A stretch of DNA of 64,000 nt from Sipunculus nudus (Eukaryota; Annelida; Sipuncula; Golfingiida; Sipunculidae), in contig CM049317.1 in the NCBI GenBank assembly GCA_026874595.1, positions 32,600,901 through 32,664,900 on the forward strand, in the 5' to 3' direction. Shown here in pieces: positions 6,870 to 55,921 of this stretch (its first letter is position 1; every line of letters starts with the position of its first letter). The notes under the pieces were generated by a model that saw only the letters and a program-made list of their open reading frames with translations, was not told the origin of the DNA and did not search any database. The translations under genes and the position numbers were made by a program.

Positions 6870-9627
6870 ATAGAATTCCGTGTATATGGAGAAAACATCA
6901 CACCATGTCATACTTTAAAGCAAATTAGAATAGAACTAATCATATATTCACATATAACTCAGTTTATAAATTCAGATTCGATACAATTCAATTTTCAAAA
7001 AGGGAAATATATCTATCTAGCTCAATCTTTGCCAATTTCTAACTGTAATACATTCAGTGATACGAGTGATTCGAAAACGGTTTAGTAATAAAGTAGTCGT
7101 TCATTATCTTTTGTCTTTTATTTTCTATATATACTTCAATTTTACCTAACATTGGTTGCATTGAAGGACATTGATAACAGTGAATCCCGTAACTATGGCA
7201 AAGTTCTTCCACAAGGAACCTCTTGCTCCATTGTACCGGTACATAACATCGAATCTCTTCGTTATTGTCAAATGATTATCAAATGATGCTAGGTTCGTGT
7301 GTTTCATGGAATGGGTTTTAAATTCGTTGTATATTTATTGCGTTGTATATTAACCTGAAGACATCGTTTGTAGCTATATGTTGACGCAGAGGTGTTTGTG
7401 TTGTGTAATTTAATATCATTTGAAAAATGACAATTACAATAAAATGAATAAAAATCCTACGACTTAATCATATATTGGAAAGGGTTTACTTTCGTGTGTG
7501 GATACGTGTCTCTATAAGTGTATTAATATATGTATTTTGTAAAATTAAAAATTATCCGATAATATACCATTTCCATAGGGACGAACCAATAAAACCAATA
7601 AACTATCCTGCTGCTATGTATCCTTTTCTTGATCATCTGGTACATATTGTCGGGATCTTTGACCACACAATCACACACGTTGATCAAACATTCCCGACCA
7701 TATGGCGTAGATGAGTTCCTAGCCCCTTTAAGCACACGGAAAATGACATGAACTCCAGAACTACCGTCTTGTCGTATCTTGTCCTTAAAACTTATCACTG
7801 ACACAGTTTGGAAATAGAGAAATTCAGTTTAAACACTGTTAAACTATAACTGGAAATCTGATGTTACACTAATACTATAAACTATTAATTTATCGGGTCG
7901 TTCATGCATAAAATGCGTATGCATATATGCTTTTTTTTAATTTCAAGAATAATGAAATGTCCTGTTCCTATTTTATTTTTATGACAACATCTAGGCAAGA
8001 ATATTTTATACAGGTCTCACAGAAACTAGGAGATGCAAACTGAAATGCCAAATCCTATGTACAAAGTTTATCTATAAATTTAATGCGCTCACTCAGTTGG
8101 CCCTTTCACATTGTGTGTCAGAATAAAAAATGGAGTCTAAACATATTTCTGACGAGACGACAAGGTTTTGCAGTTTTACATGACAACACAAAGTAAAAAT
8201 TGAATGTTGACAGGATATTGTGTTCAATTTTCTTTTCTTTGCAATCTTCTTGTTAGCGATTTCGTATAAAGGGTAAGTGAATGCAGAAATATCTTAAACT
8301 CCTCTTAAACTGACAACTTCATGAAATCTTAATGAGTGTGTGGCCTAAAATTTGATATCAACAGTAGAGTGAGGAACATCTTGTACCATTAATGTAGCGA
8401 ATACAGAAACCGAACAGCCGAAATGATGCAAAAGGATCTGTTTACTAGGAGTTTATACTTAGAATAATATATTATTAATGTTTAAGGCAGAACCTTGATC
8501 GTTTTCGGCTATAACCACATTGTTATCTATACAAATAATTTAAATAAATTCTTATGATCGGTGCTGCTATATGTTCACATCACCGTTCACATTATGAATA
8601 TCATATTAATCCAAATAATCATTCACTTTTGGCAATTATTAAGGTCAAACATGAGTTTAATACAGTGGTATATTATGATAAATTAACTGTAACTAATGGT
8701 AGTACTTCAGAACATCGGTAATGCTTACTTTTTTGCGTATATACATCGGGACTGATTGTTTAAAAAGCGTTCCCTGCATATTGTGGTCCCAAAAAAGTAG
8801 ACAGAATATAGTATCTTGGCGAACATATCTGATATCAGACAATACGAATTCGTTTCGTGTTGTATGTCACCTGTCACCCGTAGCCAGATATTCACACCTA
8901 ATACAGAGATAAATAATGGGAATGATAAATACGTTCATCAACCCACACAAAGGGAATGCAGCTCAGTTACATTATTATAAGTATGATTACTTCTGGCCTC
9001 ACAATACTAAAACACTAAACACACATACACACACGTACACACATACGTACAGACACATCTGTATGTATGCATGCTGATTGTGCTCTAACGAGCGTGTTGC
9101 CTCTCAGTATACAAGGACCAATTATTATTCTGTTTGGGAGTAATGCACGTTTACATTGTATTTAACGTTGGCGTTACATGGAAGTGATATAAGGCACCCA
9201 AGATCACACAATTCTGTTTATTTATACATTTTGACAATCCACATGTATGGTAACTAGGTTTACCGTGTATAACCTTCCCTTTACCGAATGGATGTTACTC
9301 GATCTTCGGTACATCAGAACACCAGAAGTAACATTATTCAGACCATATCCATGCATTTGTCCATGCAATACCATTGAACTCATATCAATATTCCTGATAT
9401 ACATTGATTTTGATTACTAAATTCGAACAAATGTATTTAAATATATTTGAAGTAAAAACTCCAATTTTTGTATGTGTATATTTATCTTTGTTAACTCTTG
9501 GTACATCGATGTCGTTTATATATTCACATTCCGAAAGTATTCACGTTTTCCCCATCTTTTAAATGATATCGACAAAACAAACCAAGTATATATAGCTCAT
9601 AGGTTTGTCGTGTATATAATGTATGTA

Positions 9628-9691
<64 letters not shown>

Positions 9692-11330
9692 TATGTATAT
9701 ATTTGCGCCTATGAATACGTGTTTGTATGACTATCACTAGCACACATAAATGTCCGGTATGAACTTTATAACAGAGTCAACTACTTTTAATTTGCTCAAA
9801 TTTTCCTCACAATCGCAAGGCAATATCTGATGTGATTGGGTTATGTGTACTAAATATGTGATGGACCTTCATTATAAGATTGACTTTTGCCTTTGGAATG
9901 GGAACTGAGAATGTCAATGTATATTTACTTTAAATGTTTTACATACGTTCGTACATGCCATATATAAACATTAACAAGGTATTCCTGATATCCTACATAT
10001 ATAAATGACAAGTAAACATATTCAGCGGTATATGATTTATTGAATTAAAGAGGAAGTACATGAATTACAGATTATCTGAAGTATAAAGTATGATGGCCCC
10101 TAGAAAAATCCATGTTTAGTCATATTATATAGTCATCTTATCCAGTCATCTTATATATACATGTGTGTGTGTGTGTCTGGTGTATGTATCAAATCAACTG
10201 GTCAGGAACACTAACCTAGGCTTAACTAAAATCTACCCCAATATGGAATAAATGGTGCTTGTGTAAATAGGCTTTCGGGAACAGCTTTATGCAACTGTCT
10301 AAAGATATTAATAAGCAAGTATCAAAACAAAATTACAGATAATAAAGAACCAGAGGCAGGTTGAAACAATTTTACAGTTAAATCAGATTAACACTATAGG
10401 TGTCATCAGGTATTTTTTTTCTGCAGTCCCAGCGAAAGTCGCCTAAGATGTATATTAGATATTAGATATTACAGATATTACAGATAACTGTCACTTCCAT
10501 ACTAGCAAGCATGTATCTGTCAGTTAAAAAATCGTATCTTTTGTGAATGTTCAGATGTGATACGAATAGGTTATGTAACATTTAAGCTGGAAAAAGGGAA
10601 TATGAATAATACACCGAGCAAGCTGAAATGGTGTTATTGTTGCATGTTGGTGTTGGTGTTATTTTTTTTATGCATGTATCTGTTGTCTGCAGAACTGAAA
10701 CCAGCCAGCGAGGTGTGCACGCAGCCTTTGTTGTTACGTTTCGTTTGAATTACAGCTCATCGGCCGAGCATCCTATATGCCCAAGGCCCTGAGCAAACCA
10801 CGTCAGGGGCAATTCTCTCTGAGCCTGTGGCCTGTTCAGACGGTTACGCTGGGGGATGAGCTGTCACTCAAAAAGAAATGAATATGATTGGCTCCGTGTA
10901 TTTCTCGCTTGGCTCTGTCTTCCAGCACAAGGTCTCATCTGATTGGACAAAAATACAGTGCTCCCCCCTAGTGTTGCAATTCAGGATACGAGGTCATAAC
11001 AAACAGCGCCTTACGATATAGGTAGTAGCCCTATAGGTAAAGCGCTGTGTAAAGAGCGTACTGTGTGATTGCCATATTAAATAAAAGGAACGTTTAAAGT
11101 CATCAATGATATTCTAATACATATTAACAACTAATCGTCTGTACTGGATATGCGAGTTCAGGATATAACTATATAAACGCAATTATCTTCTATGCAGAGA
11201 ATATAAAGTATTTTAGGCAACGCTTAAATTTGCTGTATTCATTTCTCCCTGAAGATGGAGCATATATATTTGACGTTTCATCATACTGTTAATACTTATT
11301 TTTTTGCATAACACAGAGTGTTTTGATTTA
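6870..11330. other. AT-rich stretch without a recognised gene
   Basis: It holds a TA microsatellite near 9630 and one unassigned minus-strand open stretch at 7804-7523 after a tgtcag acceptor-like site (VHVIFRVLKGARNSS, CLINVCDCVVKDPDN). It also has a + strand ORF at 10602-10748 with a basic start and a hydrophobic run. Neither is supported by family similarity. Confidence 0.5.
9630..9688. repeat. (TA)n microsatellite
   Basis: About 29 uninterrupted TA units. Confidence 0.95.
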
Positions 11331-11331
11331 C

Positions 11332-11397
11332 CTGTTGCAAAACTTTTATACGTAAATGGTCTCGAGCTACTTGAAGAAGACGTGCTGGCTTCTGATG
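11332..11397 (-). CDS. Locus A exon 7: Ser/Thr-rich stalk
   Basis: A 66-nt segment sits between acceptor cgttgcag and donor gtaaat, phase 1 to 1. It encodes ASEASTSSSSSRPFTYKSF, a mucin-like stalk comparable in place to locus B exon 6. Exon status rests on splice sites and composition only. Confidence 0.45.
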
Positions 11398-11662: not shown

Positions 11663-11787
11663 TCACAGAATTGTAACAGTGACAGAAAGCCATTTCCCTG
11701 ATCGTGTCAGAATAAGGCATTTGTTCTGCCTTGGGATGGGACATATTGTCCTGGCCCAGCGGTCGCCAGTTACCTCTTTCTCTGGGC
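11663..11787 (-). pseudogene. Locus A exon 6: broken C-terminal half of the second CTLD
   Basis: After acceptor tttaacag in phase 1, the frame reads NKCLILTRSGKWLS, similar to NYCLFVNHQGEWSS in locus B. It then ends at TGA (11665-11663). Another frame carries LLQFCETI, which resembles AFICAQV of locus B. The two pieces are too close and out of frame, so bases have been lost. Confidence 0.45.
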
Positions 11788-12768: not shown

Positions 12769-13014
12769 CTTCATGCCATTTCCATACGTTGCTTGTACCA
12801 TACGTCCAAAATTCATCTCTGTGAAAGAGGAATGGAATTAAATCGTCCATCACGTCCAAGTGCACGCCATTATTCCATAACGACACTAAGTTAGCATTTC
12901 GGTTAAGACACATCCGGACGGCCTTGACCCAGGTCACAGCTTCCTTTATGAACTCATGACACTTGTTGTTCTGTTTCATCTTGTATTCCCACTGATTGCA
13001 TCCGTTACTTGCGT
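12769..13014 (-). CDS. Locus A exon 5: N-terminal half of the second CTLD
   Basis: The exon encodes NGCNQWEYKMKQNNKCHEF, EAVTWVKAVRMCLNRNANL and FWTYGTSNVWKWHEG. Acceptor is tgaaatag, phase 1. The exon ends CATGAAG followed by gcaagt, the consensus of the rare GC-AG intron class. Locus B uses GT here. Confidence 0.7.
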
Positions 13015-13947
13015 CTATTTCACATATGTTGTGTTACGAAAGTATACAGTATGTTTACCATAAACAGAAACAACAAGTTAAATATAGAAACTAAAAGAAA
13101 CGGGAAGGCGTGAATGCATTAACTTGGAAAACAAGCATATCTATTGGTTTAACACAACAACGCAAGCGATTCCTTGGAGAAAATATCTGGGTCCAGTTAA
13201 ATAAATCATTAAAAATGATAAAATGAAAATAGCCAATATATGTATTGTAGTACTACCGTGATGTTACGTAACTTAAATATCTTCAGACCTTAATGTGGCC
13301 GAGTGAAAATAATGCATTAGAAGAGTTAAAACATTTCCTCGCTAAGGCATGAGAATATCACAGGGCCTACTGTGCATGTATTGTAATTTTATTAGTACAC
13401 TCATGCTTTGATCACAATTTATATAAATATGATTCTCTTTTCATAAATCACTTCTTACGTTACAGCTATATGTATTATGTATGAGGGAGATAACTACATT
13501 TTTCACCTGTGTCCCTTACGCATAGTGGGTAGAGTTTGAACGAACATGGTCGGCTCTTTAAAAAGATTTTGAAGGAAGAAAACGTCAAAGAAACACAACC
13601 ACCTTGCCCCCGTTCATTCCTAATAAGACGCGGCTCGTTAAGAGCCCATGACGGAGTGTCTACAAAAAGGTAACAGTCCAATGGTCTAATATAAATATAT
13701 GTTACTATAATGCTGAGTATTCTTCATCACGTTTATCCAATTGCACTGTGTTATCATGGAAACATTTTTCTTTAACAATAAAATACTTCTTTTTCAGTAG
13801 CAACCATATAAAAAAAAAAGTATAATATGTGATGATTGAACCCCCATGGTAAAATTACTTTCTGTAATTCATGAATATACATTTTTATCAGATGACATAC
13901 CAAATTATAGTGAATCAACATGGATTTCGTATCAACGGCGAACTGAC

Positions 13948-14093
13948 CGTATTCTGCATGAGTTGCATATACTGCATAGTTAGAATCTCCGTTTCCACAC
14001 ACTTTCCCATCTAAAACAAGGATGACAAGACATGGACTGTCCATGTTTCCAAAACGTACTGCTACAGCTGCAGCAGGTTGCATTCCCTGGTAC
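13948..14093 (-). pseudogene. Locus A exon 4: second half of WSC-like domain, frameshifted
   Basis: The exon starts in the frame of ATCCSCSSTFWKHG and SCHPC, then continues in another frame as DGKVCGNGDSNYAVYA. Locus B has CCCGHLL...FCGNKNSYAVYS in one frame. The exon is 146 nt; its homologue is 145 nt with identical phases. That implies one inserted base around 14005-14020. Confidence 0.65.
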
Positions 14094-14413: not shown

Positions 14414-14571
14414 CAACAGCATAAAAAACTTGTAGCTGAAACAGCGTGTTTTACAAGCACTGAAGCTGTTAACGCGTATACACCCTGACAGTGATGATTC
14501 AGTGTTGAAACGGCTATAGTCAGCGTTCAGGTGGCACCCGGGATAAAACATCATCGAAATGGATGGAGATG
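14414..14571 (-). CDS. Locus A exon 3: first half of WSC-like domain
   Basis: The exon encodes FYPGCHLNADY, SGCIRVNSFSACKTRC and FSYKFFMLL, aligning with locus B exon 2. It is 158 nt against 155 in B. Acceptor is ttatttag, donor gtatga, phase 1 to 0. Confidence 0.7.
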
Positions 14572-15025: not shown

Positions 15026-15235
15026 TTTTTGTTTGAACCCAGTTCCAATAAACAGGCGACACTTTTGCTCCTATCCAAGCTTCGTTAACCTTGCTCTTAA
15101 ATACCAATGCCATAAGAAGATGATGGGTATCCTTATTAGTATCTGCAACTAAACTTCCTCCCTTCTCCTTACAAAATCTTCTAGAGCTGAACCAGGTTGA
15201 TTTCATCATGTACAGGCAGTATTCTGCATGAGGAC
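15026..15235 (-). CDS. Locus A exon 2: N-terminal half of a CTLD
   Basis: The exon encodes AEYCLYMMKSTWFSSRRFC, KEKGGSLVAD and NEAWIGAKVSPVYWNWVQT. These are collinear with locus B exon 1. Acceptor is tacttag and donor gtaaat, phase 1 to 1. The CTLD C-terminal half is missing here too. Confidence 0.7.
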
Positions 15236-15422: not shown

Positions 15423-15507
15423 CTTCCAGTCTATTGATACAAGTTTTCCCACTAGCATAGGAGCAAGCTCCTAAACAGAGCATCGTGAGAAGCAACGCCA
15501 GATGCAT
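15423..15507 (-). CDS. Locus A exon 1: signal peptide
   Basis: The leader MHLALLLTMLCLGACSYA is followed by KTCINRLE and a gtaggt donor, phase 1. The reading frame extends upstream, but this ATG gives the best signal peptide. In locus B the leader and the half CTLD share one exon; here an intron separates them. Confidence 0.6.
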
Positions 15508-23488: not shown

Positions 23489-23966
23489 TTAATGAGCAAT
23501 GGGATTAAAACGAGAAGCTATTGTTGACACAGAAACACCAGTCGCAGTTTCATAAATTTCATTTTCCACCATTTCTGTTTCGGATTCCTTGTCACGGGTA
23601 CTTTTTATGTCTTTTAAATCCATTGTCGCATTGCCGTGATCGTGCAGCTCAACTTGACGTTTGGTTTTCTCAGTTGGCGGTTTTCTGCGTAGATTTTGTA
23701 GTTCATGGGCGTTGTCATGCAAAGCCTCAAATTCTTCGCTCGTCATCCATGGTACAGCTGTTGACTCATAGATTTCATTTTCAACCATAACAGTGTATGT
23801 GTCCTCTTCAAGACCATTTGTTGATTTTTCTAAATAATTAGACGACTTTTCTTGATATTTGACTGATTTTTGGTTCTCATTTTCTTCAGTTTGGTTTCTT
23901 AAGTCAACTCCTTTTAGATGATTATGGTCATACCTTGCATTAGACCAACTCCTTCTTGTGCAAATC
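23489..23966 (-). CDS. Locus B exon 8: cytoplasmic tail with tyrosine motifs
   Basis: The exon begins with the basic RICTRRSW and ends at a stop codon at 23491-23489. Tyrosines occur in ARYDHN, VKYQEK, SNYLEK, EDTYTVM and in two copies of VENEIYE (followed by ST and TA). The rest is Glu/Lys-rich and predicted to be unstructured. Tyrosine phosphorylation and SH2 binding are inferred from the acidic context only. Confidence 0.8.
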
Positions 23967-26900
23967 CTGGTAATTAAATTACAGTTATTGCAGGTTAAGT
24001 AAGTAAAATAACTTTAAAATAAGAAAAAAAGTTTGTGGAATAAAATTTGATAATTAAAGCATGATTGCAGTAACAATTTCCTCAGTAACTATGCGTAACA
24101 CTATTTCTGTTACGATTTATTTAATTTCCCATTCTCCACTGTAAATGCAAATGCTCTCAATATTGTATTCTAACTGTTACAGTGAACAGGTTTCCTTATG
24201 TATTATCTTTCATCGGGTAGTCAGATTTGGATTATGAAAGACACTTACCGCTTTGTTAGAATAACCAAGCCTAGTATAACAGTGATAAAGATCAGGAATC
24301 CAACGGCGCCGATGACAATCTTACCTACCCGTGAAAGTTAAAGAGGTAGAAAAAATATGCGTTTAATCTTCGTAGTTTTTAGTTTTGCTGATTATGTATG
24401 AAATAAAAAGGAAACTAGTATATTATTATATGAAATAATCGCTTAAAAGGGAAACATTTTAAAATTAATCTATGCATGCAAGAAATGTTATAACCTCCTA
24501 TATTATCAGCTTTGAATCATTAAGTCGATTTAATATGATTTGATTTGTTGCAGTGTTTACAGGTATTATTACACAGCAAGAATGGTAATTTATTGATCCG
24601 AATTAAGCAACGACTCCATATTATACAAATATTATTTTTCTGATTAACGATGTTTTAGATAGTATCATGAAAGATATATATTTTTGCACGAATGATTATT
24701 TAATTAACCTCTCCCGGTACCCATTTTGGTCGGCAATATGATGACAGCTGTTGTAGGCGTCGATAACGGTAATGCATATTCATTTTCTTTAGTAGTTACA
24801 ACCTGAGGGGTCAGTGACATATCTAAAAAAGAATAAAAATAAAACTGCATTTTACTTTAGATTTCTAAGCTACTGATAGTTTAACGTACATAAAGGCAAT
24901 AAGGCAATACGCACATTATTCAGAGAAGTCATATTTAAATAACAAAGATTTAAATTTTAAACATTTAAAATTGTCTTATGTAAGAAAGAAAAGAAATGCT
25001 TTCCGAATATTGCAGGAAAATACCTGTATATTCTTACGCAAGAATATACATTAATTCATACATTCAGCTGCATAACAAAACTGCCAGATTGCATTTAAAC
25101 GTAGCTCATATAGCAACTGGCTTAGATATTTTTTTATTTATTCAAGTTGCCAGCGAAGAGAGCTAACCATTTTACCACTCGCCTGTCCAAGCCCCATTGA
25201 TTTTTTTTATACAAATGCAATCTCAGATTTTTCATTATTAATCATTTAATTAGAATTCTTCCCTGTTCCCCTTTCAACATTTTACAAAGTATTTATGTTT
25301 AATTCATTTGTCTAGCAAACTCAAAGCACTAGAGACATGGAAGGAGAGGCCCGCACTTTTCCAATACAGCAGCCGTAACAATTGGACGTTATTTATTGTT
25401 CTTTATAGGCTTATCACGGAAAAGTCGCCAAAATATTTAGTGTTCTGAAATATTTAATTTTCATCATTATGTTTTGAATTAAAAAAAATGTTTTATAGAT
25501 CTTTAATAGGAACATAACATTTAAAAATAAGTCATTTCTCGAACATTAAGTCGAAAATGTAAACGCCAAATAACTTATTGTCATGGATAGGGGAATGAAA
25601 TAGATTATAATGTTTTTATGGATTTGCATAACTACTTAACTTGAGCACAAATAAAAGCTTCAGTTGTACTGGAGCAGGGAGAGGACGACCATTCACCCTG
25701 ATGGTTTACGAAGAGGCAGTAATTTTGACTTGGTGCTTGATGACGTTCACTTGACCAGTAGTTATCAGATACTTGTGAGTACAAACCTAAAATATAGCAA
25801 AAAGGTCGAAAATTTACAGAAATAACATTAATAAAATGTTCTTAATCGACGAAAAGCAATTTATTTATTGCTCCAGTACGCATATCACCTGTTTCAGCTT
25901 GTGTTGAAAAAAATACAGGGCACTGATATATTTTATATTGACATTTCATGAAGAGTCTGGTCCTGGGGATCAATGTATCGAATTTGTCAAAAGGAACTAT
26001 TGATCAAATGATTAGTAAAGGTATAAGACAGCAATAACATTGGGTATATACATTATCACTGACAATAATCAAGTTTTCACACCTATCTACTAAGAAAACA
26101 CCCACCGTCTTGCCATAGCCACACGCTGCTAGTGCCATATACCCAGAAGAATATGCTTTCATTTCCCCCGCCCAGGAGGGTATTCTTCCATTCCAAAACA
26201 TCCAAGTATTCACTTTCACCGTGGAATGAAACTAAACGCGAGTTACTCTCCCAACAGCGACTGATGGCCTTTTCCCAAGTCATTTGCTCTGCATGAAACC
26301 AAAGGCACCTCCCTGTCCTGTTCAAGATATATGTGTCAGAACGACACAATCCGTTTGCGGTATCTGAAAAATATAAATGTCCTACCATAGAGGTGGGGGT
26401 AATGTTGAAAAACAAGTGTAGACGTCAAAAAGGACTTTTGTAAAACAATGATCACGCAAAGTGTGGCGATCCTATTGATCAACGGCATTCCGTTCAAATT
26501 ACACCCAAAGGATTACAGGAATATCCGTAAATATTAACTCACCGTAAGGAGTACAGTTTGTAACATTGATAAAGTATTTAATGATCATCCTTTTCACTAT
26601 TACTTCTGTAATATTTATGTTATTATTGTAATAAAAAGTTACTTTGTTTAGTAGAAAGACTTTACGGTGATGTAAATAATATGAAATACTTCATATTTTG
26701 CCCTTACTTTGCACACATAATGGGGAGAAGAGACGGGTACACGGTCTGCCGACAAGATAGCGTTCTTGGTGGTTCTTGGTTAAGAGAAGTGCTGCACATG
26801 TGGGATTCCCCTTTCCATCAATTATTCATTCAGGATGACCATAAAACCATGCATTCCTACCTTTAAATATATACAAGAACATAATCTGCGAGTTAACCAT

Positions 26901-28876
26901 GCGATAAGATTAATTAAACAGGATATGGTTAAATGCATTATACTTTTAGCTGTATATTATAAAATATTCCGAAAAAAAGTATAATTATTGTATAATTAAT
27001 AAATGCAGTGTAAGTCATCTGAGCTACGTCAAACGTCGTTCCGGCCGTCCAGCCCTCTGGCCCTCTGGCTGCCCGGCCGTCCGGCCGTTAACAGAGCACA
27101 AATCTTAACCGTTAGACTTAGAAATTTCCAACCGTACATCCAGCTAGGTCCTATGTACATCTCCTTGGAAACCTGAAATTAGGTAATGGTGACAAATATT
27201 CTGCGAAATATGTACCGAAAACATGATTTTAAACACCTAGGCAGTCAGAGAGAGCCCAAAGTGTTCCGTTGAGCCGGGAATGTTCTAGCTTTACATTATG
27301 AAAGGTCTTGGACCAAGGTTTATGCAAACATAAAATTAGGTCACCATGACATATATTTAGCGATCTATATCTATAATTAGGACTTTGATAGGCCTAGAAT
27401 TTTCTTATGTAAAATTCAGGGAGTTCCTAGGCAAATCTACTTGGAAAATAGTATATTAGGTTACAGTGACCTATATTCTGTGATTTATAGGAAAAAGATG
27501 CCATTTGAGCACTCTTAATCTCAAATGGGCACACATCGCTTCTAACACAACATAATCTTCTAACACAAATTCTGGGGGGGGGGGGGGGGGGGGAGGGAGA
27601 GGTTCTGGACAAAATGCTTGGGAAAACTGACATAAGGGCATGAACTACGGACCAAAATTTTATTTTCAAGACCATACAGACAGGGTACACATTATATCAA
27701 TTTTCCTTGAAATCTTTTAATATATCATTAAGGGAAGCCTTGGGCAGATGTTTTGGACACCTGAAATTAGGTCAAGGTGACACAATCTATGAGCTACAGG
27801 CAAACAACATGATTCTGGGCACCGAGACAGTCACACAGGGCATACAACTTTACTGTTGGAGCCAGTACCTTACATTGGAAAATCCAGGGAGGTCCTTGGC
27901 AAGTCTCAATTGAATATTTAGATTAGGTGACAGTGACATATTCTGTGAGTTATGGGGAAAAAATCATGGTTTTAGTACTAAGAAATTCAGATAGGCGTCC
28001 AATACAACAGTTGTACCTAGAAGCTTCTAACTTAAAATTCAAGGAGGTCCAGGGGGAAGGGGGTTAACCCTATGTTGAGGAGGCACTTAACTTTGAGCAC
28101 CAGGAAGCCATAATTTTAAACGTTAGATCCTGAAACGTGACTAAAATGAATCTTTGGAAACCACAATAAGGTCACTGTGACTACATCTGTCAACATCATC
28201 TTAGCATCCTCTTAGGTACAAATTGTGTAGTTGGACAGAAAATTCTAATCAAATTAAGATCCCTGATATCCCTATAAAATCTTCTTTCACACAATAAATT
28301 CACTATGATAAGTTACATGGACAAAGCAGTTGGACATAGATCTGAGCATCTAGGTGGTTCAGAGTAAAATCTTCTCGGAAACCCTACATAAGGTCGCACT
28401 ATCCTATTTGCTTAGGCTTATAGATCATACGTCTCTTCCTGAGCATTGACCATTGTTCAAGTTTCATTTAATCAATTATTAATTAATTATTGTTATTTGT
28501 TTTATTATATCTTTCTAATGAAGGATTTAATAAGTTTTACTTTTTTGAAGGCAAAATTGTAGAGGTTTCTAGCACCAGCATTTTGTTTTCATTTCAATCG
28601 TCGAAACCTCACCGTTGTCGGCCTTCAAAGAATAGACTGCATAGCTATTCTTGTTGCCACAAAATCTTCTCCCAGGAAGACATCGCTGGCAAAAACCGGA
28701 ATGCCCGCGTCCTCCAAGCAAATGGCCGCAACAGCAAGCAGTCAACAGGGGATCAGTCTGGTTTGGCAGAAGAACACATTTCCATGTATTTTTTCATTTT
28801 TCAACAAGTGGATCATAAAGTTCAATTTTAGCGACATTTGATAAAATTTACTGTCAAATTTACTGATACATCGCAG

Positions 28877-28945
<69 letters not shown>

Positions 28946-29348
28946 CCACTAAATTGTTATTTTTTCTCTGTTGCGTAAATGGGAGAGCGATTTACCTTGT
29001 AAAGCATCATGAACTTGAAACCTTCGCAGTTGGATTCACATTTATGAAAGCTCTCCGTCTGTATACATTTAGAAAGTTGTGACTCGGACCTGGTCCCTGC
29101 CTTCTGGGCATAACATCCTCGATAGAGTATTGGCAAATTAGCAGGATCGGCTTTTAGAAGAGAGATCATTTTTTAGATGAATGATTTTCTGCAAGTGATC
29201 ATGTATAATCAAATCAAGGCAACGTTCTCATACCCAACATGAAAGCAAATTACATACACTATAATTACATCCACTTTTGTAGTAAAATAAATGCTGGTGA
29301 CCTTTAGTAATGTATTATTGTACGTTGTATATTGTATATATATATATA

Positions 29349-29396
<48 letters not shown>

Positions 29397-29739
29397 CGTG
29401 TGGTAATATATATTTTGAATATCATCGGGAGAAATGCACCTTCACCAACGAAGTCTAGTGGTACCTACCTTCAGGTTGAATCCATTGCCAGAAAGCAGGT
29501 TTGGTTTTGCCCCCAAGCCATGCTTTTTCAGTATCACTGTCGATTAATAAACTTTTAATGAGCGCATGTGGATTGTCATTATCATCCACGGCTAAACTTC
29601 CGCCGTACTTCTTGCAAGTTATTTTAGCCACGTCCCACGTCGTTTCATTCTTGTACAGGCAATACCTGTCCAAACACTTGTGTTTGAAGGAGGTTGTTGT
29701 TCGTAAAAGAAACATGAATACTATCCAAGCACACGCCAT
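23489..29739 (-). CDS. Locus B: half-CTLD / WSC-like / CTLD single-pass receptor-like protein (8 exons)
   Basis: The exons are 29739-29469, 29150-28996, 28757-28613, 26363-26106, 25786-25641, 24802-24721, 24324-24249 and 23966-23489. All intron phases agree (1,0,1,1,0,1,2) and give an open frame of about 536 residues. Order: signal peptide (about 1-17), the first half of a C-type lectin domain (to about 90), a WSC-like cysteine-rich domain (about 91-190), a complete CTLD (about 191-325), a short stalk, one transmembrane helix (about 354-376) and a roughly 160-residue cytoplasmic tail with several tyrosines. CTLD and WSC domains usually bind glycans or other extracellular ligands, so a recognition receptor is inferred; no ligand is known. 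The start is the ATG of a hydrophobic leader. The borders of exons 5 and 6 are the least certain, and an upstream 5' UTR exon is not excluded. No disabling lesion was seen, unlike paralogue A. Confidence 0.78.
24249..24324 (-). CDS. Locus B exon 7: transmembrane helix
   Basis: The exon encodes about 22 uninterrupted hydrophobic residues (IVIGAVGFLIFITVILGL within them), ending in TKR as a stop-transfer signal. The phases (1 in, 2 out) match both neighbours. Confidence 0.75.
24721..24802 (-). CDS. Locus B exon 6: juxtamembrane stalk
   Basis: This short Thr/Pro-containing stretch (VVTTKENEYALPLSTPT onward) lies between the CTLD and the membrane helix. The acceptor is acccctcag and the donor gtaccg. 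An alternative acceptor about 28 bases upstream is out of phase with exon 5. Confidence 0.5.
25641..25786 (-). CDS. Locus B exon 5: C-terminal half of the second CTLD
   Basis: The exon encodes QNYCLFVNHQGEWSSSPC and ends AFICAQ. This is the C...W...C...FIC signature that closes a CTLD. No classic calcium-binding WND triplet is present. The donor (CAA followed by gttaag) was chosen because it is the only phase-compatible site near the end. Confidence 0.75.
26106..26363 (-). CDS. Locus B exon 4: N-terminal half of the second CTLD
   Basis: Acceptor is tatttttcag and donor gtgggt, phase 1 to 1. The exon encodes CLWFHAEQMTWEKAISRC, an RLVSFHGESEYLDVL helix and FFWVYGTSSVWLWQDG. The pattern is a CTLD first half with WVYG in place of WIGL. 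Confidence 0.85.
27003..28450. repeat. Diverged tandem repeat block related to the dispersed element
   Basis: It opens with GTAAGTCATCTGAGCTACGT and a GGCCGTCC-rich block like the end at 3780. Then come several ~200-300-bp units built around CCTGAAATTAGGT(C/A)A, GTGACATAT and GGTTTTAG/GATTTTA motifs. It lies in the intron between locus B exons 3 and 4 and contains no exon. Confidence 0.55.
27574..27593. repeat. Poly-G run
   Basis: About 20 G residues followed by GGAGGGAGAGG. Confidence 0.9.
28613..28757 (-). CDS. Locus B exon 3: second half of WSC-like domain
   Basis: The exon encodes ACCCGHLLGG, FCQRCLPGRRFCGNK and SYAVYSL. This is the CxCG, C-x2-C-x-G, CG and xxVY ending typical of WSC. 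It is 145 nt long, phase 0 to 1, with donor gtgagg. The + strand reading of the same bases is a shadow. Confidence 0.75.
28878..28945. repeat. (TA)n(TG)n(TA)n microsatellite
   Basis: TA units interrupted by GTGTGTGTG, in the locus B intron next to exon 2. Confidence 0.95.
28996..29150 (-). CDS. Locus B exon 2: first half of WSC-like domain
   Basis: The acceptor is ttctaaaag and the donor gtaaat. The exon encodes YRGCYAQ followed by a C-x8-C-x3-C stretch (KCIQTESFHKCESNC) and EGFKFMMLYK. This matches the start of a WSC domain (YxGCY, then C-x3-C and an aromatic GY/GF segment). Locus A has the counterpart exon at 14571-14414. Confidence 0.75.
29335..29393. repeat. (TA)n microsatellite
   Basis: Interrupted TA run inside the short (318-bp) intron between locus B exons 1 and 2. 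Confidence 0.95.
29469..29739 (-). CDS. Locus B exon 1: signal peptide and N-terminal half of a CTLD
   Basis: The protein opens with a hydrophobic leader (MACAWIVFMFLL), then YCLYKNETTW, a CKKYGGSL segment and AWLGGKTKPAFWQW. These are the helix and WIGL-type core of a CTLD first half. The exon ends CCTGAAG followed by gtaggt, phase 1. The long-loop half with its last two cysteines is absent, because the next exon starts a different domain. Confidence 0.8.
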
Positions 29740-53403: not shown

Positions 53404-53984
53404 TATAAATTACACATTTAAAGTACACGTTATACATTTAAATATATTCTGTGTTGCTAATGAGTAGCACAGAATGTCAAAAAAATAAATAAAGTTAATT
53501 GCAAACAAAAAATAAATAGAAAATCATTTTGAATAATAATATCATGCTATTAATTATCATTATATTACTTATTATGACTGGTAAGAATGGATCAGAATGA
53601 ATGGTATTCCCTATTTGAATGGGTGGGTATACCAGAATCGTCACCAGATGATATTGAACATTGTGCAGGACTACGGAAACAGGGCCACATTAGATTACCT
53701 TCAAGGCATTGCCTACAACTTGCCCATGTAATGAACATTTCATATAATGGACTTTTGAACATATGTTTACAAAGCTTAAGCATATTTCACATAATGGACT
53801 TTTTACAATATATTAACAATGTGTTTTTTACAATACACAATACAATCATCTGAGAGACACATGATGTATGTACCTATGCTTGGTTTCAAATATATTCTCA
53901 CCAGTATTAGTTTTACTTACAATCGGGATATATTACCTTTAGTTTGTACGATGTGTACTTTAAAAGTTTTATTAAACCATTGGG

Positions 53985-54345
53985 GGTAGTTGTCTGGGAG
54001 GGGGATAGTTTTCCGGGGGGTAGTTGAACGGGGGGTAATTGTCTGGGGGGTAGTTGTCTGTGGGGTAGTTGTCCCAGGGGGTAATTGTCCGGGGGGGTAA
54101 TTTTCCGGGGGGTAATTGTCTGGGGGGGGGGGGGGTAATTGTCCAGGGGGTAATTGTCGGGGGGTAATTGTCCGGGGGGTAATTGTCTGGGGGGTAGTTG
54201 TCTGTGGGATAGTTGTCCCAGGGGGTAATTGTCCTGGGGGGTAATTTTCCGGGGGGTAATTGTCTGGGGGGGGGGTAATTGTCCAGGGGGTAATTGTCGG
54301 GGGGTAATTGTCCGGGGGGTAATTGTCTGGGGGGTAGTTGTCCTA
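53985..54345. repeat. G-rich minisatellite arm
   Basis: Around twenty units of GGGGGGTA(A/G)TTGTCC, with a higher-order repeat of roughly 145 bases visible twice. With the C-rich arm it encloses about 580 bases. It is intronic in the TSP1 locus; G-runs are dense enough for quadruplex formation. Confidence 0.85.
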
Positions 54346-54736
54346 GAGCCCTACCGTATGGACATAATTTTTGCCTCCATCAGGAGCATATTCCCCTACA
54401 TGTGTGTTTTTGGGTGTTTATGTGTGTTCATGTGATTGTTACCAACCTAATTCACGTAATCCTGAACGGAATCTCATGAAGTATGTGGAACATTTCGGAA
54501 ATGGGTCAACGGGGAAACGATAACATTTTGGTTTGGATCCGAAACCTGATCCGGATTCAGTAACGTCATCAAGGAATATTTACAAATATAAAGTAACCAA
54601 GGCTTGAATGAACCAGGGAATATGGGCCGAAAAAGTGAACGCCTATACACATGGCTGATGACTGCAATTATTAGAATGGTGATTTCTAGTTTTATCATGT
54701 TTTCTTTATTTATTTTAGGCTCTCCTGAGTACTGAC

Positions 54737-54926
54737 CGGCTCCACTAAGCGCTACTTTTATCCTGTGTCGGGTCCGGACCCGGACGTCTTCCCGCTCATT
54801 ACAAGACACAGAGCAGCCCGACCACGTGGTCCAGTCAGAGAGCACACAGTCACTGGCGCACGGGATCAAACAGTCAACCTTCGTCTCCGACCGAGTCTCA
54901 AAGCAGAAATACGAATTCACGCTCTC
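54737..54926 (-). CDS. TSP1 exon 5
   Basis: The exon encodes KVDCLIPCASDCVLSDWTTW, SGCSVSCNE and VRVRTRHRIKVALSGAG. It is a textbook TSP1 module with CSVSC and an RxRTRxR strand. Acceptor ttattacag, donor gtcagt, phase 0 to 1. The + strand ORF over it is a shadow. Confidence 0.85.
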
Positions 54927-55921
54927 CTGTAATAAACGAATAACAGTCATTGGACGATGTAAAATTTCAAATATTTTTACCAAAAAAAAAGATAAAATGA
55001 AAATTACTATTAAACAACAATTACTTGTTTTACATTTCATATATCTGTTTATAAGGGAATAATAAGTGAATGAAACGGATGGCATATTTTGGACATATTT
55101 GTTTTATAAAACCAGTTATAAACGGAATTTGGATCCAATCTGCAATTTTAACAATTTACACTGTTGCAAACCATTTTACACATATATATATATATATACG
55201 AGCAACCAGACATGAGGGAATGTGAATTCCCATGAGACATCTTATAATGGGCAGTGGTCACAAGAGATCTTTGTCACCTGTCTTCTCTGTGGCCACGTCT
55301 CAGATATGCACCTTTTTAATCTTGAACTGTCAGGAATTCTGCAAAGTATGTCCAAAGGGGAGAATTTCCCATGTTTTCACCTATATCCGGAGATATTTCA
55401 CTTACCCCCCGGGGTAATGCAGCGCCACCTGACGGTAACTACGATTGTGTATCGATAGCAACAGAGAGCAATTTGTTACTCCGAATCTCAGGCCTTCTCA
55501 TAGAGTGTGGCATCACAAATATTAAGTTCAACAAACACAATTTGATTATATTGACCAATTATGTGGTAAGTAGGGTTTGAAAAAAACACATTTTTGTCTT
55601 ATTTGTCGCTTTTTAATTTACAAATTATCTATGTGCATGCTATTCCTATGTATTTCTATGGCCTGTGCAATAAAATGTTCAGTTGTACACTTGTGCCGTT
55701 GCGCTATCTATTGGTAGCCATTCTTGGTTATATAATAGCATCGTCAGTGATATATGAGATGAATTTAAGCTGGTTTTCAGGTGCAAATAATGAAAGATTA
55801 GGACAAGTTAGTCACTATAATAAAGATACTCTTAGTCTATTTTAGGGAAATTTGGAAGGTAAATAGCTAAATATGATCAATATGCTGAGATACCAACAGT
55901 TTATTAAATGTTAATACTCAC

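Follow-up and report, generated by a model that had tools for sequence, protein, structure and literature searches.

C-type lectin domains (CTLDs) and WSC domains occur together within one protein in the Polycystin-1/REJ family, whose members combine PKD, REJ and GPS parts with numerous membrane helices. Long-form CTLDs, such as those of the PLA2 receptor, the mannose receptor and the selectins, match the Lectin_C profile and carry six cysteines, a WIGL-like motif and a WxW strand. An intron downstream of the WIGL motif has been described in fish (PMC514892). The long loop region of the CTLD carries the canonical binding site, and independent evolution has been proposed for it (PMC7618208). 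The combination of CTLD and WSC is not new, since WSC is named among the extra domains of unique bivalve CTLD proteins; nesting of one domain in the other is unmentioned in the accessible text of that source (PMC10140915). This study concerns gene B, a predicted receptor gene on the reverse strand (23489-29739) of a 64,000-nucleotide stretch of the Sipunculus nudus genome (GenBank assembly GCA_026874595.1, contig CM049317.1, positions 32,600,901 to 32,664,900; hereafter the window), and its paralogue in the same window, gene A. An original prediction had described B as half a CTLD joined to a WSC domain and followed by a full CTLD, a membrane helix and a tyrosine tail, and had taken the half-CTLD for a stable architecture and not for an error of the gene model.

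The first CTLD of these genes (CTLD1) is most likely a whole domain, with a cysteine-rich module of about 100 residues nested in its loop, and the arrangement appears to be common to the two diverged copies. When the halves flanking the module were joined without the insert, the A sequence matched Lectin_C over profile positions 2-106 of 107 with 38.1 bits, against 27.6 bits for the half (a gain of 10.5), and the B sequence, with an X placed at its TGA stop, matched over positions 3-106 of 107 with 34.2 bits, against 25.1 bits for exon 1 (a gain of 9.1); the curated cut-off is 22.6 bits. In a control run on B only, not on A, the first half was joined to random fragments of the window, taken from open frames that held two or more cysteines, and 9 of 9 such constructs scored only 24.2-28.2 bits, with alignments ending at positions 59-83. 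The joined A domain also matched CTLDs of solved structure, the best being the PLA2 receptor (E 2.9e-10), and its alignment with P-selectin (E 5.3e-06) crosses the joint. The six long-form cysteines are split three and three, with C0, C0' and C1 in the first half and C2, C3 and C4 in the second, a division that is invariant between A and B, and the cysteines of the predicted C1-C4 and C2-C3 pairs are present in both CTLD1 copies. It is very improbable that the module is bordered by two unrelated half-CTLDs, left there by chance exon loss, that do not form one domain, given that the joined halves span the Lectin_C profile unbroken and contain between them precisely the six long-form cysteines.

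In both copies the second half of CTLD1 sits 3' of the module and not in the intron before it. In A it is encoded by exon 4b, an open exon located in the intron between the module and the second CTLD (CTLD2), which specifies a W, an EPR motif and C2, C3 and C4. Its counterpart in B, exon 3b, lies inside the 2249-bp intron 3, which is equivalent to the intron holding A exon 4b. Each of these exons is 153 nt long and phase 1-1, and exon 3b is provided with splice sites. Among the six-frame peptides of the window of at least 15 residues they are reciprocal best non-self matches (E 0.014 and 0.0015), and 15 of 48 aligned residues are identical, a level of alignment equalled by 0 of 1000 shuffles. 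A search for the cysteine pattern of the C-terminal half of a CTLD, in the three minus-strand frames, gave no match in B intron 1 or in A intron 2, both of which were rejected as sites of the second half. In A intron 4 the same pattern occurred at exon 4b only; in B intron 3 it occurred at exon 3b and at one other place, which was attributed to chance.

The exons of gene B, all on the reverse strand, are as follows.

Exon 1, 29469 to 29739, reverse strand: signal-peptide-like start, then the first half of CTLD1 (C0, C0', C1, WLGG, WQW)
Exon 2, 28996 to 29150, reverse strand: WSC-like module, first part, also backed by the alignment with the paralogue
Exon 3, 28613 to 28757, reverse strand: WSC-like module, second part (CCCG, CxxC, CGN, YAVY)
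Exon 3b, 26708 to 26860, reverse strand: second half of CTLD1 (C2, C3, C4), phase 1-1, with an in-frame TGA at 26826-26828
Exon 4, 26106 to 26363, reverse strand: first half of CTLD2
Exon 5, 25641 to 25786, reverse strand: second half of CTLD2, with a weak donor, gttaag (59th percentile of GTs)
Exon 6, 24721 to 24802, reverse strand: short stalk
Exon 7, 24249 to 24324, reverse strand: transmembrane helix (mean hydropathy 2.96 over 19 residues)
Exon 8, 23489 to 23966, reverse strand: cytoplasmic tail, with MVENEIYE twice and YTVM once

Much of the original prediction held when gene B was rebuilt exon by exon. The eight exons then proposed (the list above without exon 3b) are joined in phase by seven GT-AG introns and give an uninterrupted reading frame of 536 residues. 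By itself, exon 1 matches Lectin_C only over profile positions 3-59 of 107 (25.1 bits), which is the first half of a CTLD, and intron 1, at 318 bp, has indeed no room for the remainder. Exons 4 and 5 encode a complete CTLD2 (residues 216-324, profile positions 1-106), and the predicted membrane helix and a tail of 158 residues follow C-terminally. The claim that a half-CTLD is the stable form of the protein did not survive: its appearance is a gene-model omission, the second half having been overlooked because it was sought only in the 318-bp intron before the module. In the same way, the half-CTLD said to be kept in paralogue A is kept as regards the first half, in which 28 of 71 aligned residues are identical to B (equalled by 0 of 1000 shuffles), and the second half is encoded there too. 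As to the proposal of a cell-surface recognition receptor, a single-pass surface receptor with CTLDs and a tyrosine tail fits the sequence. Long TA microsatellites were seen in B intron 2 (28880-28945) and B intron 1 (29335-29395).

The exons of paralogue A, likewise on the reverse strand, are the following.

Exon 1, 15423 to 15507, reverse strand: signal-peptide-like, carries C0
Exon 2, 15026 to 15235, reverse strand: first half of CTLD1
Exon 3, 14414 to 14571, reverse strand: WSC-like module, first part
Exon 4, 13948 to 14093, reverse strand: WSC-like module, second part, with an apparent frameshift
Exon 4b, 13507 to 13659, reverse strand: second half of CTLD1, open, phase 1-1
Exon 5, 12769 to 13014, reverse strand: first half of CTLD2, with a poor acceptor context and a donor, gcaagt at 12769, that is GC and not GT
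Exon 6, 11663 to 11787, reverse strand: second half of CTLD2, ended early by a stop
Exon 7, 11332 to 11397, reverse strand: Ser-rich and stalk-like, not alignable with the B stalk (247 of 1000 shuffles as good)

Several observations weigh against the reading of CTLD1 as a whole domain with a nested WSC-like module; they concern the second half taken alone, the identity of the module, and the state of both copies. In Pfam searches, which here and below admitted matches with E up to 10, the second-half peptide of neither A nor B matched any family by itself. As B with the insert left in place also reached only 26.0 bits against Lectin_C in HMMER (positions 3-85), simple domain scanning would be prone to report CTLD1 as half a domain.

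The module holds ten cysteines per copy and is encoded by two exons, flanked on either side by a phase-1 intron. The name WSC-like is provisional and comes from an eight-cysteine order (GC..CxxxC..CxC..CxxC..CG..Y) that fits three WSC sequences and that both A and B show alongside two further cysteines. Of 300000 shuffles made of each copy, 0 match this order, the ranges of the pattern having been set after the copies were seen. No match to Pfam WSC (PF01822) was obtained in B or in A, the A module having been scanned with XX at its frameshift, and a WSC bait scored 72.7 bits in the Pfam search as a positive control. The B module alone had 0 matches among PDB sequences, and a profile of the two module sequences had one, with E 1.1, that was taken as chance. 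When compared by hhalign with the WSC domain of Kremen1, which shares the eight-cysteine order, the module aligned with the CxxxC..FKF..CxC segment in register, but it differs in having ten cysteines, and the probability was about 1 percent (E 0.048 and 0.075). With a home-made profile of three WSC sequences, shuffles did as well as B in 400 of 2000 cases and as well as A in 46 of 2000. The WSC domain of the original prediction is thus matched in cysteine order alone, and finds no support in Pfam, the PDB profile search, hhalign or the home-made profile.

There is some chance, although the lesser one, that the module belongs not to WSC but to a PAN/apple-like type or to some unrelated cysteine-rich type. 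This would account for the lack of a Pfam WSC match in either copy and for the result with the small profile, in which B was no better than shuffles and A somewhat better, and WSC and PAN are described as structurally related (PMC5014086). It is opposed by the cysteine order itself, which in both copies matches the three WSC sequences as no shuffle did (within the post hoc ranges), and by the finding that no PAN family was matched in Pfam either.

As to the state of the copies, B has a single in-frame TGA, in exon 3b, and is open in the rest. Differences between A and B in this exon are flat across codon positions 1, 2 and 3 (0.62, 0.50 and 0.58), compared with 0.45, 0.28 and 0.51 in the first half of CTLD1; exon 3b was compared with four other pieces, none of them flat, the second WSC-like exon and the stalk being left out, and over its 48 codons the pattern is a hint of relaxed constraint. 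An acceptor downstream of the TGA, at 26810, was rejected: it is weak, at the 21st percentile of AGs on a weight table, and inspection of the sequence shows that its phase does not suit the exon 3 donor. The product of B in this assembly may be truncated or exon-skipped, or the TGA may be a one-base misread; assembly error, polymorphism, pseudogene and exon skipping are all candidate explanations.

If the TGA-bearing, phase 1-1 exon were skipped, a half-CTLD product is possible for B alone. The stronger form of this idea, that exon 3b is dead or skipped and that the present product of B is a genuine receptor in which an unpaired half-CTLD is joined to the WSC-like module, is considered unlikely. 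It would agree with the TGA, with the flat codon-position pattern, with the open remainder of 536 codons including a long tail, and with an acceptor that is the lowest of B's eight (2.6 versus 3.9-7.7, on a weight table), and skipping would keep the frame because exon 3b is phase 1-1. However, exon 3b retains all three cysteines as well as RPC and PLCV, its donor is strong (98th percentile), and C1 would lose its partner. Its similarity to A is also about that of the other exons, the remaining pairs having 28/71, 19/50, 16/48, 31/82 and 10/34 identical residues, and the stalk 3/20. Less probable again, and best regarded as speculative, is that exon 3b acts as a phase 1-1 stop cassette, such that its skipping would give a membrane receptor with the half-CTLD and WSC-like module and its inclusion a secreted form ending soon after the module. 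If true, B would switch between receptor and soluble form by splicing, on top of having a CTLD with a whole domain inserted in its ligand loop.

The lesions of A are the frameshift in the WSC-like module, the poor acceptor and GC donor of exon 5, and the shortened CTLD2. No exon for a transmembrane helix or tail of A was found by tblastn with B, by tyrosine motifs or by a splice-bounded hydrophobicity scan. As a control, the scan with a similar filter recovered the transmembrane exon of B (2.96); between 11331 and 1, in A, it returned 0 candidates, and with a relaxed filter there were four overlapping weak candidates (2.22-2.37) at about 8.9-9.1 kb. An unbounded scan of 9000-11333 yielded two stretches only, neither of which was accepted as an exon. 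The presence of lesions in both copies, and the missing helix and tail of A, would be explained if A and B were recent pseudogenes of a nested-CTLD receptor with intact copies elsewhere. This is a tentative alternative that carries appreciable but minor weight, as B shows a single lesion across its nine exons and its tail is intact, and single-base assembly errors would look alike. Taken from the two sequences, it is quite probable that the ancestor of A and B had a nested CTLD1 (first half, WSC-like module, second half) followed by CTLD2; in B a stalk, a membrane helix and a tyrosine tail come next, which would make it a single-pass surface receptor.

Compared with described systems, CTLD1 resembles the long-form CTLDs in its Lectin_C match, its six cysteines, its WIGL-like motif and WxW strand, and the intron after WIGL, and differs from them in that about 100 residues of module separate the WxW strand from the W..EP segment, and in the lack of EPN/QPD or WND. 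Like the bivalve proteins of PMC10140915, the genes would bring CTLD and WSC together. With the Polycystin-1/REJ family they would share the presence of both module types in one receptor, but B is a short protein with a single membrane helix, and its module lies inside a CTLD. Lectin_C was the sole Pfam family matched in the 536-residue B protein, in which one hydrophobic helix was seen when all residues were read by eye, and B shows in these respects no sign of belonging to that family. Among the literature matches listed, a CTLD with such a nested module was not described, most subscription papers being outside the search, and the 'partial'-type wording applied to CTLDs in PMC514892 refers to partial BLAST matches.

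Elsewhere in the window, an open frame at 54477-55103 (reverse strand) encodes the initial part of a thrombospondin type 1 (TSP1) repeat and is possibly an exon of a neighbouring gene; its Pfam scores, 26.8 bits for TSP1_spondin (cut-off 41) and 21.3 bits for TSP_1 (cut-off 21.6), are both below threshold, the second by little. In a Pfam scan of four other long open reading frames, this TSP1 match was the only one. A long proline-rich tandem repeat at 53916-54379 (reverse strand), open in all three minus frames, adjoins the TSP1-like frame.

The position of the module suggests how it may have been acquired. In CTLD2 of B a phase-1 intron lies just after WxW, which is the position where the WSC-like exons enter CTLD1, and CTLD2 of A also breaks after WxW, but with the GC donor. 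The simplest scenario would be that a phase 1-1 WSC-like module was inserted by exon shuffling into a phase-1 intron of the CTLD just after the WxW strand. There the long loop region begins, which is variable and faces the ligand. In the WSC domain of Kremen1, strands beta1 and beta5 are adjacent (PMC5014086), so the ends of the module would probably lie close together, and inserted domains tend toward close ends (PMC13114784). The two halves could then fold as one unit, with C1-C4 and C2-C3 disulfides closing it, and the WSC-like module would be displayed at the top of CTLD1, where it is likely to form a recognition surface because the long loop region carries the binding site. Classical calcium-dependent sugar binding is not predicted, since reading of the translations found the EPN/QPD and WND sugar-binding motifs (PMC7618208) neither in CTLD1 (EPR in A, HPE in B, no WND) nor in CTLD2 of B.

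CTLD2 and the stalk would hold the module off the membrane. In the B tail an identical stretch of eight residues, MVENEIYE, occurs twice at a spacing of 72 residues. Immunoreceptor tyrosine-based inhibitory and activation motifs (ITIM and ITAM) had 0 matches each across the 158 residues, and one YxxM and two NEIY were present. Once phosphorylated, the NEIY tyrosines may recruit adaptors, presumably through phosphotyrosine or PTB-type (phosphotyrosine-binding domain) binding. A whole module placed in the loop of a CTLD by way of a shared phase-1 intron would clearly exemplify a nested domain produced by exon shuffling, and the nested CTLD shows how such a gene gets misread as encoding half a domain.

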